DNA of 64,000 bases from Aquabacterium sp. Its GTDB lineage: Bacteria > Pseudomonadota > Gammaproteobacteria > Burkholderiales > Burkholderiaceae_C. The stretch's first letter is position 1. Every line of letters starts with the position of its first letter. The DNA is taken from assembly GCF_016195855.1 (NCBI RefSeq), contig NZ_JACPYU010000005.1, positions 1-64,000 on the forward strand. The letters run 5' to 3'. This document shows positions 8,142 to 60,829 of the stretch, piece after piece. Below the pieces are notes generated by a model. It worked only from the letters and a program-made list of their open reading frames with translations, made no database searches and had not been told where the DNA came from. The translations under genes were made by a program, and so were the position numbers.

Positions 8142-9542
8142 ATGCTGCAGATGCCACTTGGACAGGCGGCTCAGCTCAAGTGCTTGCTGTTTGTGGCCTT
8201 GCTTTGCCTGGCCGGCTGCAGCAGCCTGCCCACCATCGTCCCCGATCTGGCCCGCGCGCCGCGCCAGCCGGTGCAATTGCAAGGGGTGCATGGCCCCCTG
8301 ACACCCGCCCAAAGCAAGGCCATCCTTGAGGGGCTGGGGCGCCATGGCCAGGAGACGGGCATCTTTGATCGCCATCTGGCGCGCGAGGAGGCCATCGTCG
8401 GCAGCCCGCTCACCACCGGCAACCGCGTGCTGCTGCTTCAGAACGGCCCGGCCACTTACGGCGCCATGCTGGAGGCCATCACCGCGGCACGCGACCACAT
8501 CAACATGGAAACCTACATCCTCGAAGATGACGAAGTCGGCCAACGCTTTGCACAAGCCCTGATCGACAAACAGCAGCAGGGCGTTCAGGTCAACCTGATC
8601 CGCGACAGCGTCGGTACTCGGGGCACCCCGGCGTCGTTCTTCCAGAAGCTGGCTGATGCCGGCGTGCGCGTGCTCGAGTTCAACCCCATCAACCCCTTTG
8701 TGGCGCGCAAGGAGTGGGAGCTGAACCAGCGTGATCACCGCAAGCTCCTGATCGTGGATGGGCGCAAGGCCTTCCTGGGCGGCATCAACATCAGCAGCGT
8801 GTATGCCAGCGGCTCTGCCAAACAAGGGCGGCGCGTGCAAGATGCCGACGGCCCCACCTGGCGCGACACCGATCTGCAACTGGAGGGGCCAGTGGTGGCC
8901 GAGTTGCAAAAGCTCTTCCTGGCCACTTGGGCGGCACAAAAGGGCGACCCACTGGCCACCAGGCGTTACTTCCCGCCCACCCAAGCCGTGGGGCAAGAGG
9001 TGGTGCGCGCCATTGGCAGCTCACCAGACGAGGCCTACAGCCTGATCTACGCCACGCTGCTGTCGGCCATTGGCAGCGCCCAGACCAGCGTGCTGTTGAC
9101 CAATGCTTACTTCGTGCCTGACCCGCAACTGCTCGCTACGCTGGAAGCCGCCGCCGCCCGTGGTGTGGACGTGAGGCTGATCCTGCCCAGCCAGACGGAC
9201 TCATGGCTGGTGTTCCACGCCGGCCGCGGCTACTACGAGCAACTGCTGCGTGCGGGCGTGAAGCTCTACGAGCGCCGCGGCGTCATCTTGCACTCCAAGA
9301 CGGTGCTGGTGGACGGCGTGTGGGCCACGGTGGGCTCCACCAACCTGGACTGGCGCAGCTTTCTGCACAACCACGAGCTGAACGCCGTGGTGCTGGGTGC
9401 GGATTTCGGCAAGCAGGTGCAGGCCATGTTCGAGAAGGACCTGGCCGAGTCTGATGAGATCACGCTGGCTCAGTGGCAGAAGCGGCCGATCAAGAACCGC
9501 CTCAAGGAGTACCTGGCCAGGATGTGGGCTTACTGGCTGTGA
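8142..9542 (+). CDS. Phospholipase D/cardiolipin synthase-type lipoprotein
   Basis: 466 residues. The lipoprotein signal LLFVALLCLAGCSS has Cys as the expected lipidation site. Two HKD motifs define the PLD superfamily: HRKLLIVD near residue 198 and HSKTVLVDG near 384, the latter followed by GSTNLDWRSF. Two-motif envelope proteins of this size include cardiolipin synthases ClsB/ClsC-like enzymes and other phosphatidyltransferases. Start at 8142, supported by GGAGGA 5 nt upstream; an upstream in-frame start at 8049 would put about 31 extra residues before the signal peptide. Substrate not determinable. Confidence 0.85.
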   Translation: MLQMPLGQAAQLKCLLFVALLCLAGCSSLPTIVPDLARAPRQPVQLQGVHGPLTPAQSKAILEGLGRHGQETGIFDRHLAREEAIVGSPLTTGNRVLLLQNGPATYGAMLEAITAARDHINMETYILEDDEVGQRFAQALIDKQQQGVQVNLIRDSVGTRGTPASFFQKLADAGVRVLEFNPINPFVARKEWELNQRDHRKLLIVDGRKAFLGGINISSVYASGSAKQGRRVQDADGPTWRDTDLQLEGPVVAELQKLFLATWAAQKGDPLATRRYFPPTQAVGQEVVRAIGSSPDEAYSLIYATLLSAIGSAQTSVLLTNAYFVPDPQLLATLEAAAARGVDVRLILPSQTDSWLVFHAGRGYYEQLLRAGVKLYERRGVILHSKTVLVDGVWATVGSTNLDWRSFLHNHELNAVVLGADFGKQVQAMFEKDLAESDEITLAQWQKRPIKNRLKEYLARMWAYWL

Positions 9543-11893: not shown

Positions 11894-12278
11894 TTAGATC
11901 CCTGTTAAATTTGGCTGATAGGTAAGTTTTATTCTATGTCTAAGGCTTATTCTGTCGCGATCCTACTTTGGAGGGGCTGAAGTTGACTTTGGCCCGTGTG
12001 CTTTTGGATGCATGTGCCCCCCCCTGAGCTTTTGCGCCTCCTTATCGTCGCGCAGCCCAACTGAGAGCGGACGCGCTAGCTAACTTGATAGCTATTGAGA
12101 CACGCATGTCCCATAACTGATCTTGTTTGGACAGGTTGCGCTGCTTCTTGACGTCATCTTGTACGTGCATCTCACCAACCTCCCCAGTTGTTCATTGATG
12201 CTTGCTCAACAAACTATAACCGTACCGTCCAGAACAAGAAACGCCTGTTTGCAGGTGCCGAAATAGCGTCACCAGCAG
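11894..12278. other. Intergenic region upstream of the PEP-CTERM gene
   Basis: About 385 bp with no supported ORF. The part next to the PEP-CTERM gene is AT-rich and probably carries its leftward promoter (around 11900-11945). A run of nine C (12010-12018) is the only low-complexity tract. Short ORFs here have no recognisable features. Confidence 0.4.
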
Positions 12279-12488
12279 ACCCCAGCCCCAGCGGCCTGAA
12301 AGGGCCTCTGTGTCGCTGAGGAGCGGAGGGCTCACCTGGTTCGGCCCGCAGGGCCGATGGGTAAGCTGTTTGAGCCGCCGAAGGACGGCGAGTTTGCGCA
12401 CCCAAAGGTGAGCCTGAGCACCGCAAGGGAGTCGGTGCCGCAGGCGCCGACCGGCACAGTGAACCGCTCAGGCCGCTGGGGCTGGGGT
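12279..12488. repeat. 210-bp element bounded by perfect 21-bp inverted repeats
   Basis: The left arm at 12279-12299 (begins accccagcccc) and the right arm at 12468-12488 are exact reverse complements. The interior has no convincing gene but contains smaller dyads, such as ggcccgcagggcc near 12344. The size and terminal inverted repeats resemble a MITE or another non-coding interspersed element. Immediate target-site duplications are not obvious. Confidence 0.65.
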
Positions 12489-12545
12489 TTGCCTGCTCGG
12501 TCTCCGCATGTATGACGAACCACAGCCTAGGCAAAACCAAGTGTT

Positions 12546-12563
12546 CACAATGTCAACATTGTG
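12546..12563. promoter_or_regulatory. 18-bp palindromic operator upstream of the oxidoreductase
   Basis: CACAATGT-CA-ACATTGTG is a perfect dyad of two 8-bp arms about 47 nt before the start at 12611. It sits where an operator for a dimeric repressor (TetR- or MarR-like) would be expected. No regulator gene is adjacent, so the cognate protein is unknown. Confidence 0.5.
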
Positions 12564-12610
12564 TGCTTAAATCCACCCCATATACAGCCACCACCGATGG
12601 GGAGCCCCAC

Positions 12611-14290
12611 ATGAGCCACGCCAAAGCCGACAAAGCCAACTGCCCGCGCATCGGCACCCGCTACCGCGACTGGCGCCTCAACGGCCCTTATGACGCGCTC
12701 ATCATCGGCTCCGGCATGGGCGGCCTCACCACCGCCGCCTTCCTGTCTGAACTGGGCTGGAAGGTGGCCGTGCTCGAGCAGCACTACACCGCCGGCGGCT
12801 ACACCCACAGCTACGAGCGCGAAGGCTATGAATGGGATGTTGGCCTGCACTACGTGGGTGACATGGGCGCGCCCACCATGCCGCGCAAGCTGATGGACTT
12901 CCTCACCGGCGGGCGCCTGCAATGGGCCGCCATGGCCCAGGCTTATGACCGCTTCTTCATCGGCGACAAGGTGTTTGACGCCCTGGCCGGCAAGCAGGCT
13001 TACCGCGATGAGTTGGTGCGCCGCTTCCCGCAAGAGGCCAAGGCCATCGACACCTACCTGGCCCGCCTGGCCGAGGTCAAGAAGTACGTGCCGCTGTTCA
13101 CCATGGCCCGCCTGCTCAAGCCCTGGCAACGCAAGCTGGCCCAGCCCCTGCTCAACATGCTGCTGCCCCGCAGCTTCAGCATGACCACGGGCGCCGTGCT
13201 GGCCGAACTCACGCGCGACCCCGATCTGCTCGCCGTGCTCACGGGCCAGTGGGGGGACTATGGCATGTCACCCAATCAGTCGTCCTTCATCATCCATGCG
13301 CTGGTGGCCAGCCACTACATGCATGGCGGCTACTACCCCGTGGGTGGCAGCTGGCGCATTGCCGAAGCCATCCTGCCCAAGATCCGCGCGGCCGGTGGCG
13401 AGGTGTTCACCTATGCCCGCGTCAAGCAGATCGTGGCCGAGCAGGGCCAGGTCAAAGGCGTGTTGATGGAAGACGGCACCCGCATCGATTGCGCCTGCGT
13501 GGTCTCCAGTGCCGGTGTCTTCAACACCTTCGAGCACCTGCTGCCCCCGGCCGAGGTCAAGCGCGCCGGTTATGACAAGCTGCTGCCCAAGGTCAAGCCC
13601 AGCGCGGCCCACCTGGGTGTCTACATCGGGCTCAAGCAGACAGCCGAAGAGCTGGGCCTGCCCAAGACCAACTTCTGGGTCTACCCCGGCAACGATTTTG
13701 ACGGCATCACCCAGCGCTTCACGGATGACCCGGATGCACCGTTCCCTGTGGTCTACATCTCCTTCCCCTCGGTCAAGGACCCGGACTTTGCGCGGCGCTA
13801 CCCGGGCAAGGCCACCATCGAGATCGTGGCCCCGACCAACTACGCCTGGTTCGAGAAGTGGGAAGACACCATCTGGGGCAAGCGCGGGCAGGACTACGAA
13901 GCCGTGAAGGCCCAGTGGGGCGAGCGCCTGATGGCGGTGCTGTACGACAAGCTGCCACAACTGCGCGGCAAGGTGGATTACTTCGAGGTGTCCACGCCCT
14001 TGTCGACCAACTGGTTTGGCGGCTACCAGCGCGGCGAGCTGTATGGCCTGGACCATGACCCGCAGCGCTTCCAGCAAGAGTGGCTGAGCCCGCGCACGCG
14101 CATCGAGGGCTTGTGGCTGACGGGGCAGGATGTGCTGTCTTGCGGGATTGTGGGCGCCATGATGGGCGGGGTGCTGACGGCCACCGCCGTGGCGGGCCTG
14201 CGCCAGATAGGGCCGGTGCTCAAGGGCATCATGCAGGCCAAGGCGCTTGCCCCTGGCGAGGTGGCGGCGGACCACATTGGCGCGCATTGA
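12611..14290 (+). CDS. FAD-dependent phytoene-desaturase/RetSat-like oxidoreductase
   Basis: 559 residues from MSHAKADKANCPRIG, preceded by GGGGAG. The N-terminal dinucleotide fold ALIIGSGMGGLTTAAFLSELG (about 28-48) ends in VAVLEQH; GGYTHSYEREGYEWDVGLHYVG and the C-terminal GLWLTGQDVLSCGIVGAMMGG are typical of the CrtI/retinol saturase family. Members desaturate, isomerise or reduce polyenes and other lipids; the substrate is not determinable here. Single gene behind a palindromic operator. Confidence 0.85.
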   Translation: MSHAKADKANCPRIGTRYRDWRLNGPYDALIIGSGMGGLTTAAFLSELGWKVAVLEQHYTAGGYTHSYEREGYEWDVGLHYVGDMGAPTMPRKLMDFLTGGRLQWAAMAQAYDRFFIGDKVFDALAGKQAYRDELVRRFPQEAKAIDTYLARLAEVKKYVPLFTMARLLKPWQRKLAQPLLNMLLPRSFSMTTGAVLAELTRDPDLLAVLTGQWGDYGMSPNQSSFIIHALVASHYMHGGYYPVGGSWRIAEAILPKIRAAGGEVFTYARVKQIVAEQGQVKGVLMEDGTRIDCACVVSSAGVFNTFEHLLPPAEVKRAGYDKLLPKVKPSAAHLGVYIGLKQTAEELGLPKTNFWVYPGNDFDGITQRFTDDPDAPFPVVYISFPSVKDPDFARRYPGKATIEIVAPTNYAWFEKWEDTIWGKRGQDYEAVKAQWGERLMAVLYDKLPQLRGKVDYFEVSTPLSTNWFGGYQRGELYGLDHDPQRFQQEWLSPRTRIEGLWLTGQDVLSCGIVGAMMGGVLTATAVAGLRQIGPVLKGIMQAKALAPGEVAADHIGAH

Positions 14291-51700: not shown

Positions 51701-51997
51701 TCAGACGAAGCTCAGCAGCTCGACCGTGACGGGCTCTTCGCCCAGCGTGGCCTGACAGGCCAGACGCGACTTGGAGCTCACGCCCACCAGGGCATCGAGC
51801 TTTTCGTTCTCGGTGCGCTGGATCTTGGACAAGCTCTTGCAGCCTTCCTGGATGAAGACATGGCAGGCGCCGCATTGGGCCTTGCCTTCGCACTTGCTCA
51901 TGATGGCAGCGCCAGCGGCCTTGATGGCGGCCATCAGGGTGGTGCCGGGGGCCGCGTCGAAGGTGATGCCGGCGGGCAGGATGGTCAGGGTGGTCAT
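51701..51997 (-). CDS. Plant-type [2Fe-2S] ferredoxin, nif-linked
   Basis: 98 residues. Cluster ligands SKCEGKAQCGACHVF (C-x5-C-x2-C) and a later Cys in SRLACQATLG. Similar short ferredoxins recur in nif clusters. A wider spread between clusters (EGCKSLSKIQRTENEKLDALVGV) matches the nif-type variant. Lies between SIR2-like and amine-oxidase genes, so it could serve the latter. Confidence 0.9.
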   Translation of the reverse strand: MTTLTILPAGITFDAAPGTTLMAAIKAAGAAIMSKCEGKAQCGACHVFIQEGCKSLSKIQRTENEKLDALVGVSSKSRLACQATLGEEPVTVELLSFV

Positions 51998-52054: not shown

Positions 52055-52924
52055 TCAGGACGCGCACAGCAGCGCGGCCACTTCAGCCAGGCTCAGGTCG
52101 ATGCGCGTCACGTTGTTTTCTTCCAGGAAGCGCGCTTCCATGCGGGTGGGCTCGTTGGGCAGCACCGCCCAATGGCGCTCGCCGGAGCGCTTCATGATCT
52201 GGCGGGCAAAGCTGCGCGTGAGCTGGTCGTTGAAGCGGCAGCCCATGAACAGGAAGCCTTTGCCTTTGCGCAACGCCTGCACTTCGGCGGGGATCGGGGT
52301 CTGGATGTCGATCTCGGTCAGCACCTCGACATAGTCCGAGTCCGACACCAGGTAGTTGCTGGCCGGCGAGCGGCCGCCGATAGGGCGGTAGACCAGGGCC
52401 TTCCACGCGGGCGAGCAGCTCTCGGCCAGTTGGCCGTCCGCATCGTAGAAGGCCGTCCAGGTGCCGAAGTGCTCGGACTGGGACAAGCCCTGCACCTGCC
52501 CCCAGTCTTTGGCGGGGCGTTGGGCGGCATAGGCCTTGACCAGGGTGTCGTCATACCAGCTCTCGACCACCAGCGGTGGGGCCAGCCTGGCGATCCAGTC
52601 GTGCAAGGGGCTGGCCGTGGGGACCTTGGCGAACGCCTCGTCCATCTGGCCCACCACGCTCTTGCGGTGCTTGAAGTTCTCGATGTACTGCGCGGCCTGC
52701 GTGAGCCGGTTGCGGATCTTGTGGGGCACGGTGACCTTGGCGGTCAACTGCGCCACCAGGGCTTCGGGTGTGGAGGGCACGGGGCAGTCGGGGATCAGGT
52801 CCAGCAGGCCGGGGCCCAGGTAGGGCACGACGCGGCCTTCCTTGAGGCCCCCGACCAGCTCGGGCAGCCACTCGTTCACGTTGGCGGCGGCAAGGGGCTT
52901 GTTTTGGGCTTCGATGACGGGCAT
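52055..52924 (-). CDS. SIR2-like domain protein, apparent pseudo-enzyme, nif-linked
   Basis: 289 residues from ATG 52924 (GGAG 6 nt upstream, so TTG at 52930 is not the start). The SIR2_2-like pattern is visible: GRVVPYLGPGLLDLIPD (31-46), LVVESWYDDTLVKAY (118-132), ALVYRPIGGRSPASNYLVSDSDYVEVL (176-202), GFLFMGCRFNDQ (223-234). In active members the second block reads TTNYD and the third KLHG. Here the Asn position is Trp123 and the His position Ile182, so NAD hydrolysis is unlikely. Probably a binding or regulatory role. Alignment by eye. Confidence 0.72.
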   Translation of the reverse strand: MPVIEAQNKPLAAANVNEWLPELVGGLKEGRVVPYLGPGLLDLIPDCPVPSTPEALVAQLTAKVTVPHKIRNRLTQAAQYIENFKHRKSVVGQMDEAFAKVPTASPLHDWIARLAPPLVVESWYDDTLVKAYAAQRPAKDWGQVQGLSQSEHFGTWTAFYDADGQLAESCSPAWKALVYRPIGGRSPASNYLVSDSDYVEVLTEIDIQTPIPAEVQALRKGKGFLFMGCRFNDQLTRSFARQIMKRSGERHWAVLPNEPTRMEARFLEENNVTRIDLSLAEVAALLCAS

Positions 52925-52951
52925 GTTCAACTCCGATGTGTTCGGTTCGTG

Positions 52952-54145
52952 TCAGTAGATGGCGGCACCTGCGCCCACATTGACGGAGGCGTCCTTGAGC
53001 GTCTTGACGATGTACTTGACCTCGTCTTCGTCCAGGTGGGTGTGAAAGGGCAGGGTGAGCGAGCGGTCGGCGATGCGCTCGGTGTTGGGCAGCAGGCCGC
53101 GGTGCCAGCCGCTTTGCTGGTAATGGAACTGCTGGTGCAAGGGCACGCAGTAAATGGCGGACTCCACCGAGTTCGAGTCCATGTCCTCGATGATCTGGTT
53201 GCGTGCACTGCCGGTGAAGCGCTTGCCCAGATGGATCTTGTAGAGCATCCAGTGCACCTCGTCGATGTTCTCGGCGAGATAAGGCGGCTTGATGCCTTCA
53301 AAGCTTTGCATCTGCGTGTGGTACCAGGACTCGACCTGCTTGCGCTTCATCAGGATCTCGTCGATGCGCTTGAGCTGGGCCAGGCCAATGGCCGCGTCCA
53401 GATCGCTCATGCTGGCCTGCCAGGGCACGCGGCTGCCCACCGACACCGAGTTGCGGTCGCTGATGCGGCGCTCGCGCAGGTAGCCCAGCTCGCTGGCGAT
53501 CTTGGGGGCGTCGGTCAGCACCATGCCGCCCTGGCCGCAGCACAGGGCCGAGGGCTGTGAGAAGTCGAAGATGGCCACATCACCAAAGCTGCCGGTGAGC
53601 TGGCCCTGGTAGCGTGAGCCAATGGCTTCGGTGCTGTCCTCAATCAGCTTGAGACCGTGCTGGTCGGCCAGGGCGCGCAGGCCTTGCCAGTCGGCCGGGT
53701 GGCCGTTGACGTTGCTGGCCAGGATGGCCTTGGTGCGCAAGCTGATCTTGTCGGCGGCCTTGGCGGGGTCGATGCAACCGGACCAGTAGTCGATGTCGGC
53801 CAGGATGGGGGTGGCGCCCACGATGGTGATGGCGTGCGCGATCTGGTGCCAGGCGTAAGCCGAGGTGATGACCTCGTCACCCGGGCCGATGCCCATCACC
53901 TTCAAGACCAGGCAGGCACCCAGTGTGCCGCTGGCCACGGCCGCGGCGTGCTGGCGCCCGATGTAGTTGGCCATGGCCTGCTCGAAGCCGGTGACCAGGG
54001 GGCCGGCCGACAGCTGGTTGCTGCGCAAGGTCATCACCACGGCTTCGAGTTCATCGGTGGTGATGTCGGGGTCCGAGAGGACAAGCCAGTTATCTGGCCC
54101 TTCGTCCGTGGTGTTGGCGGCTTCGGTTTGCGTTGGGGTTTCCAT
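52952..54145 (-). CDS. DegT/DnrJ/EryC1-fold protein lacking the PLP lysine, nif-linked
   Basis: 397 residues. Fold type I aminotransferase features: SDPDITTDELEAVVMTLRSNQLSAGPLVTGFEQAMANYIG, ASGTLGACLVLKVMGIGPGDEVITSAYAWHQIAHAITIVGATPILADID, LIEDSTEAIGSRY (Asp170 equivalent to the ring-N Asp). The Schiff-base block, normally SFhxTK...GEGG, reads DFSQPSALCCGQGG, with Ser199 in the lysine position. So it is unlikely to be a normal transaminase. 15 nt before the small orf upstream, 27 nt before SIR2-like. Confidence 0.8.
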   Translation of the reverse strand: METPTQTEAANTTDEGPDNWLVLSDPDITTDELEAVVMTLRSNQLSAGPLVTGFEQAMANYIGRQHAAAVASGTLGACLVLKVMGIGPGDEVITSAYAWHQIAHAITIVGATPILADIDYWSGCIDPAKAADKISLRTKAILASNVNGHPADWQGLRALADQHGLKLIEDSTEAIGSRYQGQLTGSFGDVAIFDFSQPSALCCGQGGMVLTDAPKIASELGYLRERRISDRNSVSVGSRVPWQASMSDLDAAIGLAQLKRIDEILMKRKQVESWYHTQMQSFEGIKPPYLAENIDEVHWMLYKIHLGKRFTGSARNQIIEDMDSNSVESAIYCVPLHQQFHYQQSGWHRGLLPNTERIADRSLTLPFHTHLDEDEVKYIVKTLKDASVNVGAGAAIY

Positions 54146-54160: not shown

Positions 54161-54427
54161 TCAGGCGTTCTGCGTCAGCACGAAGGCCGAGGCCTGCTGG
54201 GGTTCGGCGGTCACCGTCCAGCAATGGCCATCGGTGGACATGAGGTAGATGGCGCGCTCGGGCGTCACCTGCATGGCGGGTTGTTCGCCGCGCATGTCGA
54301 AGGCGTCCAGCACCAGCGCACGCAGCGGCGCAAAGCGCTCGCGGATGGTGGCCGCGGCCGCGCGCACCGTGGCCGACTGGCCCAGGATGCTGGCGGCTTC
54401 ACTCAACTGTTCGCTGGAGATGGCCAT
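54161..54427 (-). CDS. Uncharacterised nif-operon protein
   Basis: 88 residues: MAISSEQLSEAASILGQSATVRAAAATIRERFAPLRALVLDAFDMRGEQPAMQ, then VTPERAIYLMSTDGHCWTVTAEPQQASAFVLTQ. Helical N-terminal half, beta-rich C-terminal half. Only 1 nt separates it from nifT. I do not recognise the family; comparable small genes occur beside nifT in nif clusters, but its role is unknown. Confidence 0.7.
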   Translation of the reverse strand: MAISSEQLSEAASILGQSATVRAAAATIRERFAPLRALVLDAFDMRGEQPAMQVTPERAIYLMSTDGHCWTVTAEPQQASAFVLTQNA

Positions 54428-54428
54428 G

Positions 54429-54650
54429 TCACACCTCCTCGCCGGTCGTGGTGCGCTTGGCCTCGACCGTGATGGGCAGCCGGGTGTCGTCGGGCATCTC
54501 GGGCAGGGCCAGTTGCCAGCCATTGGCCATGGTCACCAGGCCACCCCACATCGTGGGCCGCTCCATGGACACGATGGGCTCTTCCAAGTCCTTCTTGGGG
54601 ATGTAGACAGACAGGATGCCGTCGGCGCCCTTGCGGATCATGACTTTCAT
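54429..54650 (-). CDS. nifT: NifT (FixU-like)
   Basis: 73 residues. MKVMIRKGADGILSVYIPKKDLEEPIVSMERPTMWGGLVTMANGWQLALP is clearly NifT. Small protein of unknown biochemical role that travels with nif genes. Overlaps nifS by 4 nt. The tail TVEAKRTTTGEEV is usual. Confidence 0.95.
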   Translation of the reverse strand: MKVMIRKGADGILSVYIPKKDLEEPIVSMERPTMWGGLVTMANGWQLALPEMPDDTRLPITVEAKRTTTGEEV

Positions 54651-55858
54651 GCAAATACTCCAGTTGAGACTTGGGAAGGGCTTGCCAGCGCTGCACCAGC
54701 AGCAGCGCGTTCGGCCATGAGGGGCGCGAGCTCAAGCGGCAGGCGCTCGATCACGGTCTGGATCTGTTGGGCGGTGGTGTGGGTCGACAGGCTCAGCCGC
54801 ACGGCGCACAAGGCTTCTTCACGCGTGAGGCCCATGGCCATCAACACAGGCGAGGGCTCGTTGCCGCTGGCCGAACAGGCCGCACCGGACGAGGCCATCA
54901 CGCCCATGCGGTCGAGCTTGTGGAGCACCACATCGGCGTGCACATGGCCGAAGCGCAGGTAGCAGGTATTGGGCAGGCGGGCGGCCTGCGCCCCGAAGAT
55001 GACGGTGCCAGGCAGGGCGGCCAACAGGCCTTGTTCCAGCGTCAGGCGCAGGCGGGCTTGCGTGGCCGTGTGCGCCAGCCAGGCCTCGGGCGTCATGGTG
55101 AGCTTCTCGGCGGCGGCGCCCAGGCCCAGGATGCCGGGCAGGTTCTCGGTGCCGCCGCGTCGTGCGCGCTCCTGCGTGCCCATGAAGAGCGCGGGCCAGT
55201 TCAGGCCCTGGCGCACCAGCAGCGCCCCCACGCCTTTGGGTCCATGAAACTTGTGGGCAGACAGGGATACCAGGTCTGCACCGGACTTGGCAAAGTCAAA
55301 GGGCAGCTTGCCGATCAGCTGGGTGGCATCCACGTGCAGCAGGGCGCCTTGTTCATGCGCGAGGCGGGCCAGCTCGCCAATGGGCATCAACACGCCCGTC
55401 TCGTTGTTGGCCGCCATCACCGATACCAGGGACACCTGGGGCGTGATGAGCTGGCGGGCTTGTTCGATGTCGAGCGTGCCGTCCGGCATGAGGCCGATCC
55501 AGTCGACCGCGACCTGCTGGCGTTGTTCCAGATGGCGGGCCAGCTTTTGCACGCCCGCATGCTCGCCTGCGCTCAAGACCAGGCGCTGGCGGCCATTGAA
55601 ACCCACCGCACCGCGCAAGGCGATGTGGTTGGCCTCGGTGGCACCGCTGGTGAACACGACTTCGGCTGGCTTGCAGTTCAGGAAGCGGGCCACCTGTCCG
55701 CGTGCCATGGCCAATGCCTGCTTGGCTTCCTGGCCCATGGCGTGGGAAGACGAGGCATTGGCCCAGGTCTGGCTCAGTGCCAGTGCGATGGCCCCGACCA
55801 CGCCGGTAGACGGTGCCGTGGTCGCGTTGTTGTCCAGGTAGATCCAGTCTGGGTTCAT
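54647..55858 (-). CDS. nifS: NifS cysteine desulfurase
   Basis: 403 residues. WIYLDNNATTAPS, PLP lysine in [20 protein letters not shown], catalytic Cys in SSGAACSASGNEPSPVLMAMG. It makes persulfide for nitrogenase Fe-S clusters. The active-site loop sequence (SSGAACSA.NEPS) is NifS-like and distinguishes it from iscS in the second block. Ends in an Ala/Ser-rich tail. Confidence 0.95.
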   Translation of the reverse strand: MNPDWIYLDNNATTAPSTGVVGAIALALSQTWANASSSHAMGQEAKQALAMARGQVARFLNCKPAEVVFTSGATEANHIALRGAVGFNGRQRLVLSAGEHAGVQKLARHLEQRQQVAVDWIGLMPDGTLDIEQARQLITPQVSLVSVMAANNETGVLMPIGELARLAHEQGALLHVDATQLIGKLPFDFAKSGADLVSLSAHKFHGPKGVGALLVRQGLNWPALFMGTQERARRGGTENLPGILGLGAAAEKLTMTPEAWLAHTATQARLRLTLEQGLLAALPGTVIFGAQAARLPNTCYLRFGHVHADVVLHKLDRMGVMASSGAACSASGNEPSPVLMAMGLTREEALCAVRLSLSTHTTAQQIQTVIERLPLELAPLMAERAAAGAALASPSQVSTGVFA

Positions 55859-55887: not shown

Positions 55888-56238
55888 TCAAGGCCAGAAC
55901 ACCCGCATGGGGTCCACGCAGATTTCGTCGAGCAGGGGCTGCAGGTGCCGGGACTCGTCATGCAACACCCAGCGGTCGTGCACGTGGTCCTTGAAGTACA
56001 GGGCCCAAGCGTCTTCCACTGGCTCCACCCAGGCAATGTCGATCACGCCGCCATTGGGATCGATGTTGCGCGAGCAGCAGGGGCTGGTGATGACCCAGCC
56101 ACCCCACTCGGATCGCTCGATCTGGGGCTGCACATAGCGGTAGCGCACACGGTGACGCAGGGCACGCTCGATGCGCACGCGGTCCATGTCGTGAATGCGG
56201 GCCGCTTGCCTGGCCTGGGGGATGGGCATGGTGTTCAC
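55888..56238 (-). CDS. Uncharacterised nif-operon protein, DUF3024-like
   Basis: 116 residues from GTG 56238, chosen because GGAGGG lies 7 nt upstream; ATG 56229 is the alternative. RVRIERALRHRVRYRYVQPQIERSEWGGWVITSPCCSRNIDPNGGVIDIAWVE, then WALYFKDHVHDRWVLHDESRHL. Cys-Cys and several His suggest metal or cluster binding. A weak likeness to DUF3024 is noted; not certain. Co-transcribed with nifS and nifZ. Confidence 0.65.
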   Translation of the reverse strand: MNTMPIPQARQAARIHDMDRVRIERALRHRVRYRYVQPQIERSEWGGWVITSPCCSRNIDPNGGVIDIAWVEPVEDAWALYFKDHVHDRWVLHDESRHLQPLLDEICVDPMRVFWP

Positions 56239-56262
56239 GGCTGGGCCCTCCAACGTTGTGGC

Positions 56263-56598
56263 TCAGGCAGTGGCCGTGTCCGGGCTGCTGTCGCTCAGCA
56301 AGCTCAGCTGACCACTTGTTTGCCCCCGTGCATCGGCGAGCATCTGGTCCAGCTCCATGCACAGCAGGATCTCTTCTTCCAGGCAACCGATGACCAGGCC
56401 TCCTTCGAACTCGACCATGTAGACGGGCTGGTTGAGTTCATCGTGGCGGCCCACCTGCACGATTTCGCCTTCGCTGCCGGTCTCCACCAGCACCTCATCG
56501 GGCGCGCGATCGGGGTAGGTGCCGTCATTGACCAGGTCAACCAGGGCCACGACTTGCTGGCCCCACTGGTATTGGGGTTCACGGGGTTCGATCATCAT
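56263..56598 (-). CDS. nifZ: NifZ-family protein, second copy
   Basis: 111 residues. YQWGQQVVALVDLVNDGTYPDRAPDEVLVETGSEGEIVQVGRHDELNQPVYMVEFEGGLVIGCLEEEILL is the NifZ domain. Acts in late P-cluster formation on the MoFe protein. Starts 12 nt after the other nifZ. The tail (SGQLSLLSDSSPDTATA) is variable. Confidence 0.9.
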   Translation of the reverse strand: MMIEPREPQYQWGQQVVALVDLVNDGTYPDRAPDEVLVETGSEGEIVQVGRHDELNQPVYMVEFEGGLVIGCLEEEILLCMELDQMLADARGQTSGQLSLLSDSSPDTATA

Positions 56599-56610: not shown

Positions 56611-56943
56611 TCAAAGTTCTTTGAGCGCGCCGGCGCGTTCGCCCAGCTGTGCCAGGACGTCGTCGGGCAGGTTGTCCAGGGTCATCAGCTCCTTGGCCCG
56701 CATGCCCACGCGGTAGCCGTATTCGGTGAACTCGACCGCGTAGATGTAGAACTGCTGCAAGAAGGTGCCGATCGACACCACGTAGCCGATGTCGCCCTTC
56801 TTGACCAAGACATCGCCGATGTCCTTGCCGTTGAAGGTGCCGTCGTTGCGGATGGTGGTGCGGCTGACCACGCGTTCGCCAAACACGAAGCGCGGTGGCT
56901 CGGCCACCTCGATCACATCGTCATCTCGGTTGATGTCAGCCAT
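56611..56943 (-). CDS. nifZ: NifZ-family protein, first copy
   Basis: 110 residues. PPRFVFGERVVSRTTIRNDGTFNGKDIGDVLVKKGDIGYVVSIGTFLQQFYIYAVEFTEYGYRVGMRAKELMTL is NifZ-like; the FGERVVSRTTIRNDGT element aligns with QWGQQVVALVDLVNDGT of its neighbour. Start at 56943 overlaps the LRV gene's stop by 8 nt. Confidence 0.9.
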   Translation of the reverse strand: MADINRDDDVIEVAEPPRFVFGERVVSRTTIRNDGTFNGKDIGDVLVKKGDIGYVVSIGTFLQQFYIYAVEFTEYGYRVGMRAKELMTLDNLPDDVLAQLGERAGALKEL

Positions 56944-57715
56944 GAGGGATTCCGGTGTCGTTGAGGCGTTGCAGCACGGCGGCGCGGACTTCGCTGTCCT
57001 CGTCGTGGCGCATGCGCTGGAGCAGGTCGGGCAGGGCACGCTGGACGGTTTCCCAACGCACGATGAGGTCGTCGTCAAAGGCCAGCCGCTCAAGCAGGCC
57101 GACGGGCAGGCGTTGTGCGACGATGCGGCGCACCTCCGGCGCGGGGTCGTCGATCAGGCGCATCAGGGCGGGCATCTCGATGCGCTGGGCCACTTCCTGG
57201 CGCACCACGGATTCGGGGTCGCTGGCCAGCACGGCCAGCAGCGCGGTGGGCAAGCGGCGCGCCACCCATTGGCGCACGCCATAGTCCTCGTCGTGAACCA
57301 TGGCGGGCAGCTTGTCCGTGTCCAGGCGCTGGGCCACACGGATGCGCACTTCGCGGTGCGGGTCCTGGATCAGCTTTTGCAGCGCACGTTGCGGCAGGCG
57401 CAGGGCCAGTTGCAGGCGCACGGTTTCATCGGGGTCCGCCAGCATGCCGGGCAGGTGGAAAACATCGGCATAACGGGCCGAGATGGCACGCACCTCGAAG
57501 TAGGGGTGGTGCAACTGCTCTTTGGCCAGCTCGGGGTGCCAGCGGAAGAAACGGTCGATGCGGCGCGCGTAGCCGTCCTGCATGCAGGCGTGGCCGATCT
57601 CGCAGCCGCCCTGGGCCTTCAGCGCCTGATACGGGCAGGTGCTGCAATCGATGGGCTGGCCATGCCAGTCCATGGCGACGATGTCGCCGGCAGGGGCGCG
57701 TGTGGCGGCCATCAT
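56936..57715 (-). CDS. LRV protein with N-terminal 4Fe-4S motif
   Basis: 259 residues. The N-terminal CSTCPYQALKAQGGCEIGHAC (C-x2-C-x10-C-x5-C) matches the 4Fe-4S region of leucine-rich-variant proteins. About eight LRV/HEAT-like repeats follow: VRQWVARRLPTALLAVLASDPES, VVRQEVAQRIEMPALMRLIDDPAPE and similar. Such proteins recur in nif clusters with nifB/nifZ; function unknown, perhaps as an Fe-S-sensing scaffold. Overlaps the upstream gene by 4 nt. Confidence 0.88.
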   Translation of the reverse strand: MMAATRAPAGDIVAMDWHGQPIDCSTCPYQALKAQGGCEIGHACMQDGYARRIDRFFRWHPELAKEQLHHPYFEVRAISARYADVFHLPGMLADPDETVRLQLALRLPQRALQKLIQDPHREVRIRVAQRLDTDKLPAMVHDEDYGVRQWVARRLPTALLAVLASDPESVVRQEVAQRIEMPALMRLIDDPAPEVRRIVAQRLPVGLLERLAFDDDLIVRWETVQRALPDLLQRMRHDEDSEVRAAVLQRLNDTGIPHG

Positions 57716-58378: not shown

Positions 58379-58801
58379 TCAAGCCAGTGGCCGTGTGGCC
58401 GGGCTCAGCTTGATCGAGCCAATGTCGATCTTGGACACCGAGGGCGGCGCCGAGCTGGCCGCGTCACCGCTGCTGCTGCACGCGCAAGGTGCCGCACCCG
58501 GGTTGACGAAGGTCAGGCCCGACTTGGTCGGGGTGTCGGCGAAGTCCACGATCACGCCATCCAGCAAGGTGCAGGTGTCTGCAGGCATGAAGACCTGGAT
58601 CCCGTTCACTTCGGCGATGGTGTCCCCCGCAGCGGGCTGGGCCTCCACCGTGAACTCCGAGTTGTAGCCGGAGCATCCACCAGGCGTCACGGTGAGGCGA
58701 AAGCCTGCCGTTTCTGGCAGACCTGAAAACTTCACCATGCGCCGAATGAATTTTTCGGCAGCGGGAGACACGGTCCAATTCACCGATGTGATGGGTAGCA
58801 T
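58379..58801 (-). CDS. Nif-specific A-type Fe-S carrier (IscAnif)
   Basis: 140 residues from MLPITSVNWTVSPAAEKFIRRMVKFSG. Ligand Cys: TPGGCSGYNSEF and the C-terminal CACSSSG, the A-type pattern. It may feed clusters to NifB or other nif proteins. The C-terminal 25 residues are an unusual extension (VSKIDIGSIKLSP). Between fdxN and the TPR gene, as in other nifB clusters. Confidence 0.9.
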   Translation of the reverse strand: MLPITSVNWTVSPAAEKFIRRMVKFSGLPETAGFRLTVTPGGCSGYNSEFTVEAQPAAGDTIAEVNGIQVFMPADTCTLLDGVIVDFADTPTKSGLTFVNPGAAPCACSSSGDAASSAPPSVSKIDIGSIKLSPATRPLA

Positions 58802-59069: not shown

Positions 59070-60656
59070 TCAAGCGGCTTCAGCGGTGTAGGCACCCTGG
59101 CGGATCGAGGCATCGCCGCGAGGCTGATGGGTGATCTCGCCGCGGGCGATGCGGCCGGTGTAGTCGGCAAACCAGCTCAGTGCGGCCTTCTCGATGAACT
59201 CGTGGGCAAAGGCGTCTACTGGTTCGATGCCGGCGGCCTTGAGCTCGTCACGCGGGCAGGCACCGATCTTGGCCACCAGCACGGCGTGGCAGTCGTTGAT
59301 GGCCTTGACGATGGAGGGCAGTTGCTCGTCTTCGCCATAACCGCCCTGGCAGTACAGGTCCACACGGCGGTGGCCGACGAACAGGGCTTCGGCAGCCGAG
59401 ACCTCGAAGATCTGGAACTCGGTGGCGTGCCCGAAGTGCAGGTTGACGCGACCGTGGCCTTCGGTGGCCACCGCCACGAGCACCTTCATGTCGGGGGCCA
59501 CTTCACCCATCTGGGCCTTGGCGCTTTCCAGGGCTTCGATCTTGGCGGCGTGCTGCGACTGGCGCTCTTCTTCGACCTTGTCCTGGTAGCTCTTGCGCTT
59601 GTCCAGGTCGTAGACGATTTCCATCTCTTCGATCTTGTCGAGCGTGAACTCTTCAGAGCGGTCTTCACCCAGCAGGCCCACCGCGTCCGCGCGGCATTGC
59701 CTGCAATGGCGCATCAGATTCGCGCCGCCCATGCAGGCGTCCTGCACGGCCTTGAGCTCCTGCGCGGTCGGGCCACGCTGGCCGGTCAGGCCGAACACGG
59801 TGCCGTGCTCGGCTTCCGAGATCAGCGGCATGATGTTGTGCAGGAAGGCCCCGCGCTTCTTGACTTCGCGGTTCACCTCGATCAGGTGCTCGTCGTTGAT
59901 GCCGGGGATCAGCACCGAGTTGATCTTGGTGAGCACGCCGCGTGCGGTCAGCATTTCCAGGCCAAGCATCTGGCGCTCGTGCAGGATCCGGGCGGCTTCG
60001 TAGCCCGTCACGCGCTTGTGGTCCCAGAAGATCCAGGGGTAGATCTTCTCGCCCACGGCCGGGTCCACCATGTTGATGGTGATGGTGACGTGGTCGATGT
60101 TGTACTTGCAGATCTCGTCGACCAGGTCGGGCAGGGCCAGGCCATTGGTGGAGATGCACAGCTTGATGTCCGGGGCCGATTCCTGCAGCATGCGGAAGGT
60201 GTCGAAGGTCTTCTTGGGGTTGGCCAGGGAGTCGCCAGGGCCTGCCACGCCCAACACCGTCATCTGCGGGATCTCGCTGGCCACGGCCAGCACCTTCTTG
60301 ACGGCCTGCTCGGGCGTGAGCTTTTGCGAGACCACACCGGGGCGCGACTCGTTGGAGCAGTCGTACTTGCGGTTGCAGTAGTTGCACTGGATGTTGCAGG
60401 CCGGGGCCACGGCCACGTGCATGCGGGCATAGTGGTGGTGGGCCTCTTCGGAGTAGCAGGGATGGTTCTTGACCTTGTCCCAGATCTCTTGTGGCATGTC
60501 ATCGGGCCCGCCCGACGAGCCGCAACTGGCCTTGCCTTCGCCGCCGGTGGTGCCGCAGCCTCCTCCGGATGAAACTGGTTCGACTGGTGCGCCCAGGGGG
60601 CGGATTTGACCGATGCCGATGAAGGCCGTTGAGGCCAGTGATGACGATGCGTCCAT
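59070..60656 (-). CDS. nifB: NifB, radical SAM FeMo-co biosynthesis protein
   Basis: 528 residues. Radical SAM Cys motif [15 protein letters not shown] (C-x3-C-x2-C); NifB-specific Cys near [16 protein letters not shown] and at the CRQC patch. The C-terminal NifX-like domain has [28 protein letters not shown]. Builds NifB-co, the 8Fe-9S-carbide core. The N-terminal Cys/Gly-rich stretch ([18 protein letters not shown]) is a variable leader. Lead gene of the third nif block. Confidence 0.97.
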
Positions 60657-60702: not shown

Positions 60703-60718
60703 TGCCATTTCCGTGCCA
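60703..60718 (-). promoter_or_regulatory. Sigma-54 promoter of nifB
   Basis: Minus-strand TGGCAC-GGAAA-TGGCA, one mismatch to TGGCAC-N5-TTGCA with the invariant GG and GC kept. The -12 end is 46 nt before the nifB start. It would drive the whole nifB-to-amine-oxidase series, as gaps are short throughout. Confidence 0.8.
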
Positions 60719-60813: not shown

Positions 60814-60829
60814 TGTCATGCTTCTGACA
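60814..60829. promoter_or_regulatory. NifA upstream activator site (TGT-N10-ACA)
   Basis: TGT-catgcttctg-ACA is an exact NifA-type UAS. It lies about 95 bp upstream of the nifB -24 element and about 43 bp upstream of the nifQ one, so one bound NifA could serve both divergent promoters. Confidence 0.8.

Follow-up and report, generated by a model that had tools for sequence, protein, structure and literature searches.

Putative pseudoenzymes of the DegT and SIR2 folds in a nitrogen fixation operon of Aquabacterium

The 64,000-nucleotide stretch of Aquabacterium sp. DNA analysed here (the window; contig NZ_JACPYU010000005.1, positions 1 to 64,000) carries on its minus strand one packed operon of nitrogen fixation (nif) genes, with nifB first and a 2Fe-2S ferredoxin gene last. 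Two adjacent genes near its end, both open and intact, encode a DegT-like and a SIR2-like protein. As the initial annotation had proposed, both look catalytically dead: the first has a serine where the lysine that forms a Schiff base with pyridoxal phosphate (PLP) belongs, and the second is without the Asn and His of the SIR2 catalytic pair. The catalytic residues are lost and yet both proteins are conserved, which points to their reuse in nitrogen fixation as components without catalytic function. Our preferred reading, to which we give somewhat better than even chances, is that both are nif-specific pseudoenzymes that would serve nitrogenase maturation as protein-binding components.

Active-site residues and predicted folds

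When the DegT-like protein is aligned with GDP-perosamine synthase (PDB 3bn1) by phmmer, the Schiff-base Lys of the latter falls on Ser199 (codon 53549-53551; FFGNKIITTGEGG against DFSQPSALCCGQGG), and two other DegT proteins from this genome that carry the Lys, included as controls, have it in the same column. None of the 94 nif-type rows of the DegT alignment has the Lys (the alignment holds 96 rows with the two controls, 93 of them distinct because some genes were fetched twice); the column is occupied by Ser in 67, Gly in 12, Leu in 7, Ala in 5, Gln in 2 and Cys in 1. The phosphate side of the pocket is altered as well. Position 194, which we take to be that of the phosphate-binding Ser preceding the Lys in the DegT family, is Asp in all 94 nif-type rows and Ser in both controls. 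Asp170, presumably at the position of the Asp that holds the pyridine nitrogen in this family, is kept in 94/94 rows together with Glu173, and position 99 is aromatic in 93 of them (Trp99 in 91 and Phe in two, with a gap in the remaining one). Asn145, His149, Trp153 and Asp194 are specific to the clade and present in every nif-type row. The C-terminal tail NVGAGAAIY (window 52955-52981) is nearly invariant to the very end of the chain, which is unusual for a C-terminal tail and makes it a likely contact site of the DegT-like protein. Rows of the alignments were required to have frames of at least 200 aa, so that loci L155-L159, among others, were left out, and the split DegT gene of locus L160 is not among the rows.

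The relationship of the second protein to SIR2 was recovered with a profile of its close family, which matches ThsA in the PDB (7uxt, E = 4e-8; 6lhx, E = 6e-6). A single-sequence PDB search with the window protein and a PDB search with a profile of the second branch of the family, described below, returned no SIR2 match, and the profile of the window's branch was thus the only one to find SIR2. In the profile alignment the family's WYDdt stands against TTNYD of ThsA, which puts Trp on the catalytic Asn, and in a second, weak segment YKPlG stands against YKLHG, which puts Ile on the catalytic His; the corresponding codons lie at 52556-52558 and 52379-52381. The canonical SIR2 protein of locus L032, our control, aligns in the same way at both positions and has the Asn and the His. 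These are the residues that the initial annotation had named Trp123 and Ile182; counted from the TTG at 52930 they become residues 125 and 184, and the ATG at 52924 is the likelier start.

Across the 127 nif-type rows of the SIR2 alignment (128 with the control, of which 124 are distinct; short frames of 203 aa in L115 and 233 aa in L112 are included), Asn and His never occur together. Trp occupies the Asn position in 104/104 rows of the window's branch. The 23 rows of the second branch keep the Asn and have the His replaced by Met (21) or Leu (2). Six rows keep the His, all with Trp at the Asn position, and come from genomes of the window's phylum but of another class, presumed to be Alphaproteobacteria by likeness only. 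Whether the residues are gone from all nif-linked homologues, a check proposed in the initial annotation, is thus answered in the affirmative for the Lys in these rows; the double loss in the SIR2 pair is not universal, since its members are retained singly in some rows. A rough motif scan found both catalytic motifs in 13 of 21 generic SIR2_2 loci (one of which, L178, is the same gene as L032) against none of eight nif loci; at least two of the 13 (L174 and L186) are off a clear TTNYD, yet TTNYD and KMHG are visible in L174. Given the absence of Lys from all rows of the one family and the presence of Trp in all rows of the window's branch of the other, the residue losses are not due to chance, and the invariance of the Trp indicates that it is fixed rather than drifting. 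The GxG nucleotide loop has its first Gly in 103/104 rows of the window's branch and 23/23 of the second, and its second Gly in 66/104 and 18/23, respectively. A GPx loop is also found in the generic SIR2_2 protein of locus L190; the Ala-to-Pro change thus extends beyond nif proteins.

Confident AlphaFold2 models were obtained for both proteins, with predicted local distance difference test (pLDDT) values of 92.3 for the DegT-like and 94.1 for the SIR2-like protein. The former superimposes on the K186A variant of perosamine synthase (3dr4) with a Z score of 50.3 and a root-mean-square deviation (rmsd) of 1.6 over 362 residues at 32% identity, and it also matches ArnB. For the SIR2-like model the matches are ThsA, DSR2 and KomC, at Z of about 20 and rmsd 3.1-3.5 over about 248 residues (ThsA 8btp: VIA-align Z 20.4, rmsd 3.1, 248 residues; best Foldseek E about 2e-10), and its score against the deacetylase-type Sir2 1ici is lower (Z 14.2). 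An alignment artefact was considered and checked with the Lys-bearing DegT and L032 controls and with these structure comparisons, and the residue losses stand.

Linkage, distribution and branches of the pair

Scanning genome contigs with the DegT alignment gave 315 relatives, of which the best 80 were kept; judged by their titles most of these come from betaproteobacteria (Aquabacterium, Paraburkholderia, Zoogloea, Azohydromonas and others), and the records with both genes include Azohydromonas australica and Derxia gummosa. The claim that the two proteins travel together within nif operons is borne out by these loci. In 80/80 a SIR2-like gene follows the DegT gene downstream on its strand at a distance of 6 to 464 bp (median 20 bp), with a gap of at most 150 bp in 74, and the typical arrangement is nifS-nifT-(small protein)-DegT-SIR2-ferredoxin. 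A nif gene is visible in 79 of the 80, and the record of the last, L068, has as its first gene that of the small protein preceding DegT. The ferredoxin gene stands between DegT and SIR2 in L106 and L112. The nearest DegT relative found, at 88% identity, belongs to an Aquabacterium record, although the scan may omit records very near the window's genome. The operon also occurs in Paraburkholderia pBN1 and in Methylococcus, where the ferredoxin and a small gene separate the DegT and SIR2-like genes, and in L170 and L172, from other classes, both genes stand apart within one nif region.

The SIR2-like gene is distributed more widely than its partner. On the Rhizobium etli symbiotic plasmid it follows nifT without an adjacent DegT gene, and among plasmid records 75 have the SIR2-like protein, whereas the nif DegT protein, at more than 50% identity, is present in 4 among the 20 matches listed. 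Within 369 genomes of the window's class, it is present in 28 of the 33 with nifH and absent from all 336 others (Fisher p 2.7e-37). The 33 comprise 31 with nifH over a strict cut-off, 26 of them with the SIR2-like gene, and two with a truncated nifH, both with it; a 29th SIR2 match in these genomes is the canonical protein of L032 and was not counted. Nitrogenase assembly retains conserved genes to which no role has been assigned, and engineered nif clusters are designed without knowing which of these matter; the SIR2-like family is one such conserved nif gene. In the window's order (250 genomes), 40 genomes carry it, 29 with the window's branch and 11 with the second (one weak match was excluded), and 37 of the 40 have a nifH that exceeds the cut-off. 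Here the nif DegT gene, sought by its last 138 residues, is found in 22 of the 29 genomes of the window's branch versus none of the 11 of the second; in two genomes it appears as partial pieces on two contigs (G864) or as a 141-aa frame (G959). In these samples, therefore, the DegT-like protein comes with the SIR2-like protein and not the reverse, and the SIR2-like protein often occurs alone. Locus L035 has a remnant of the DegT C-terminus before its SIR2-like gene (8448-8684), too short to enter the alignment, which indicates that DegT can be lost while SIR2-like stays.

Altered copies of either gene were also seen. On the Paraburkholderia sprentiae plasmid (L161, 9094-9372) the SIR2-like match covers about 93 aa, so that the gene looks shortened or broken, the DegT-like match is full length, and nifS is annotated as short. 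In P. tuberum STM678 (L129) the SIR2-like frame appears shortened, at 157 aa, below the alignment threshold, and the DegT-like match is full length. On the Bradyrhizobium sp. BWA-3-5 plasmid (L160) the nif DegT gene, unannotated, is broken into two frames (11988-13116), and the nif region has a full SIR2-like gene at another place.

A tree of 44 rows supports the two SIR2-like branches (97/98 and 100/99) and their grouping with each other (98/95); separate from them stand 12 generic SIR2 proteins, namely that of L032 and those of 11 of 20 generic loci, several of them on long branches. The sequences would be consistent with a single recruited SIR2 ancestor that was inactivated in two ways, by Asn-to-Trp replacement in one branch and by His-to-Met or His-to-Leu replacement in the other; because of the long branches in the tree, this single origin is provisional. 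Second-branch genes also stand in a nif setting: eight of 11 wide loci include nifH, which is oriented divergently to the SIR2-like gene, a ninth has other nif genes, and in the remaining two our reference set recognised little. In five genomes (G084, G125, G184, G343 and G318), draT is followed by the second-branch SIR2-like gene on the same strand at a distance of about 170-560 bp.

The operon in the window

The operon runs in the order nifB, IscA/HesB-like, TPR-like, LRV-FeS, NifZ, DUF3024, NifS-type, NifT, 88-aa protein, DegT-like, SIR2-like and ferredoxin (Table 1); the TPR-like name was transferred from the counterpart in locus L002. A Pfam search with the 88-aa protein itself gave no match over the cut-off. 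Its Bradyrhizobium relative matches DUF6129 at 1.5e-5 and its Methylococcus relative at 0.0028, the latter below the cut-off. Sigma-54-like and NifA-type patterns stand where expected before nifB, and their pattern counts alone are not above chance in the window.

Table 1. Coordinates of the operon genes and putative upstream sites in the window
Feature	Position	Strand	Basis or remark
2Fe-2S ferredoxin, next operon gene after SIR2-like	51701..51997	-	usual position in relatives too
SIR2-like protein, putative pseudo-NADase	52055..52924	-	PF13289 SIR2_2, E=3.4e-20
DegT-fold protein, putative pseudo-aminotransferase, 397 aa	52952..54145	-	PF01041, E=6.2e-90
Small protein, 88 aa, usually between nifT and DegT	54161..54427	-	two relatives match DUF6129
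nifT	54429..54650	-	TIGR02934, 1.2e-32
nifS-type cysteine desulfurase	54647..55858	-	TIGR03402, 3.5e-111, below that model's cut-off
DUF3024 protein	55888..56253	-	profile match
NifZ	56263..56598	-	profile match
LRV protein with 4Fe-4S cluster domain	56936..57715	-	profile match
IscA/HesB-like protein	58379..58798	-	profile match
nifB, first gene of the operon	59070..60656	-	TIGR01290, 1.3e-203
Sigma-54 -24/-12-like site, one mismatch, about 48 bp before nifB	60704..60718	-	pattern
NifA-type TGT-N10-ACA palindrome upstream of nifB	60814..60829	.	pattern

Possible roles and known relatives

The preferred reading of the pair as pseudoenzymes would have the DegT-like and SIR2-like proteins act as a scaffold, a chaperone or a regulatory subunit in the maturation of iron-sulphur clusters or of the iron-molybdenum cofactor of nitrogenase. 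The DegT-like protein may have joined later, to work as a partner of the older SIR2-like protein and perhaps also of the operon's own NifS. From their linkage we infer that the DegT-like and SIR2-like proteins bind each other; the tail NVGAGAAIY of the former and the conserved KRS and GCRF patches of the latter are candidate sites for such an interface. Distances among DegT proteins, computed for the 47 of the 80 loci that have all 11 genes, correlate most closely with those of NifS (r 0.94, partial 0.45), and SIR2 ranks next by partial correlation (r 0.89, partial 0.28), a weak hint of a functional tie. A fuller version of this reading, which we regard as tentative and rather doubtful, holds that many proteobacteria possess a maturation subcomplex of two retired enzymes, in which a phage-defence-type SIR2 NADase domain was recruited once and disabled independently in two lineages at different residues, a sugar aminotransferase was added later in part of one lineage, and the result would be a docking platform for NifB, NifS, NifZ and NifT. 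If true, the disabling, by two routes, of a defence-type NADase fold that had entered nif clusters would make a clear case of pseudoenzyme recruitment.

Several observations weigh against such a role. An insertion mutant of the Mesorhizobium loti relative msi351 is reported to be fully effective in nodules (PMC3538637), which means that this bacterium can do without the SIR2-like protein in that setting, and five nifH genomes of the window's class are without the gene. The ratio of nonsynonymous to synonymous substitution rates (dN/dS) reaches 0.48 for the DegT-like and 0.61 for the SIR2-like gene in the more distant pairs of a set of ten loci and is lower for nifB, from which it follows that constraint on both genes is weaker than on nifB. 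Genes of one operon share a common history, which the distance correlations reflect, and the strictly kept pocket residues of the DegT-like protein (Asp170, Glu173, Asn145 and His149) could point to another ligand or activity.

The last of these points opens onto an alternative that we think unlikely, that the pocket of the DegT-like protein, and perhaps that of the SIR2-like protein, has been repurposed for another small molecule or another chemistry instead of forming an empty scaffold. The invariance of those four residues and of Trp153 and Asp194, with Trp99 in nearly all rows, is what would be expected of it; the column of the Schiff-base Lys is nevertheless variable and never holds a Lys or His replacement, and the invariant residues may equally serve folding or a protein partner. 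The initial annotation had suggested that the proteins were kept for binding, either as sensors of NAD or a PLP-like ligand or as scaffolds. Simple sensing of NAD or PLP as the main explanation is disfavoured, since the residues of the SIR2 phosphate loop and the DegT phosphate pocket are not conserved as such. NAD figures again in a further proposal of low probability, in which the SIR2-like protein would be an NAD- or ADP-ribose-binding accessory of nitrogenase switch-off, sensing NAD or ADP-ribosylated NifH together with DraT/DraG. Solved relatives with its fold have NAD or ADP-ribose derivatives as ligands, to judge by their entry titles. Among the nine draT-bearing genomes of the second branch, seven have the gene on the same strand as draT and no more than 2.5 kb from it, four of them within 250 bp, so that a link to ADP-ribosylation is possible. 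The incomplete conservation of the second Gly of the loop in the window's branch speaks against this accessory role, however, as does the position of draT on another contig in the window's genome, and DraT is found in only 13 of the 28 class genomes with the SIR2-like gene, yet in four of the five nifH genomes without it (Fisher p 0.34). Co-occurrence thus lends no overall support to a partnership with DraT, and what remains is the local arrangement in the second branch.

The other explanations are much less probable still. A lysine deacetylase that regulates nitrogenase has been proposed in print for Zymomonas mobilis ZMO1821, a guess made from the SIR2 family name of a protein that is up under N2 fixation (PMC8600466; see also PMC8594446). 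We give this very little weight, given that the Asn and His pair is absent from every nif-type row (ZMO1821 itself lies outside the alignment) and that the window model is nearer to the ThsA/DSR2 NADases than to a deacetylase-type Sir2; the reading of nif SIR2-like proteins as deacetylases or NAD enzymes looks wrong. We are equally sceptical that a phage-defence gene sits in nif islands by happenstance. Of 13 members, 11 weakly match ThsA in the PADLOC library (best E 4.6e-6), which is in keeping with that idea, as is the ThsA/DSR2 fold of the model, and the idea has to contend with a gene that is embedded in a nif operon, encodes no NADase residue pair and in the window's class is confined to genomes with a full or truncated nifH. 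Least probable of all is that both genes are decaying remnants. Broken or shortened copies do occur in some relatives and the dN/dS ratios of distant pairs are those given above, but against the nearest relative the ratios are 0.10 for the DegT-like and 0.14 for the SIR2-like gene, compared with 0.21 for nifS, and there are residues invariant across the clade, with frames open in nearly all loci.

The initial proposal of the pair as a candidate for an undescribed module needs to be narrowed, because SIR2-like genes are already listed in the nif clusters of several model diazotrophs. The Rhodobacter capsulatus protein Rcc03262 was detected in the wild type and not in a nifA1-nifA2 mutant (PMC6925177), msi351 lies within a cluster with a NifA-regulated promoter (PMC3538637), a Rhodovulum SIR2-like gene is listed after nifT (PMC9412634), and the SIR2 family protein PST_1325 of Pseudomonas stutzeri A1501 is listed adjoining nifH (PMC11332353). 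These proteins and ZMO1821 resemble the window's SIR2-like protein in family name and in position (near nifT/fixU, between nifA/nifH, or by nifH), a likeness drawn from description and not from alignment, and the available parts of the papers mention neither loss of catalytic residues nor a DegT partner. The parts available of two papers on Azoarcus BH72 (PMC9769520 and PMC3916325) mention neither gene. The part of the claim that stands concerns the DegT partner and the lost SIR2 active site, of which we found no account in our searches of the open-licence literature, where the SIR2-like gene is named hypothetical or SIR2 family. The pair thus consists of known folds in a known setting, and its better-supported core is a wider nif-specific family of SIR2 pseudoenzymes.

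Comparison with characterised systems places both proteins within familiar folds. With the defence-type SIR2 NADases ThsA (of Thoeris), DSR2 and KomC, the nif SIR2-like protein shares the fold over almost its whole chain and a detectable sequence similarity; it differs from them in the missing Asn and His pair, in being about 280-290 aa long and having no additional recognised domain, and in its nitrogenase gene setting. The DegT-like protein has the fold of GDP-perosamine synthase and ArnB, sugar aminotransferases of the DegT/DnrJ/EryC1/StrS family, and departs from them in the absence of the Schiff-base Lys, in the Asp in place of the phosphate-side Ser, in its nif operon setting and in its NVGAGAAIY tail. 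A parallel to a SIR2 protein that works with a partner is offered by human FAM118A and FAM118B, a ThsA-like pair (PMC12700824), and the fold of FAM118B matches the SIR2-like model with a Z score of 14.5. Both human proteins, however, are reported to have and need the Asn and His, and the partner is a second sirtuin, whereas in the nif operon the SIR2-like protein is without the pair and its neighbour is of the DegT fold.

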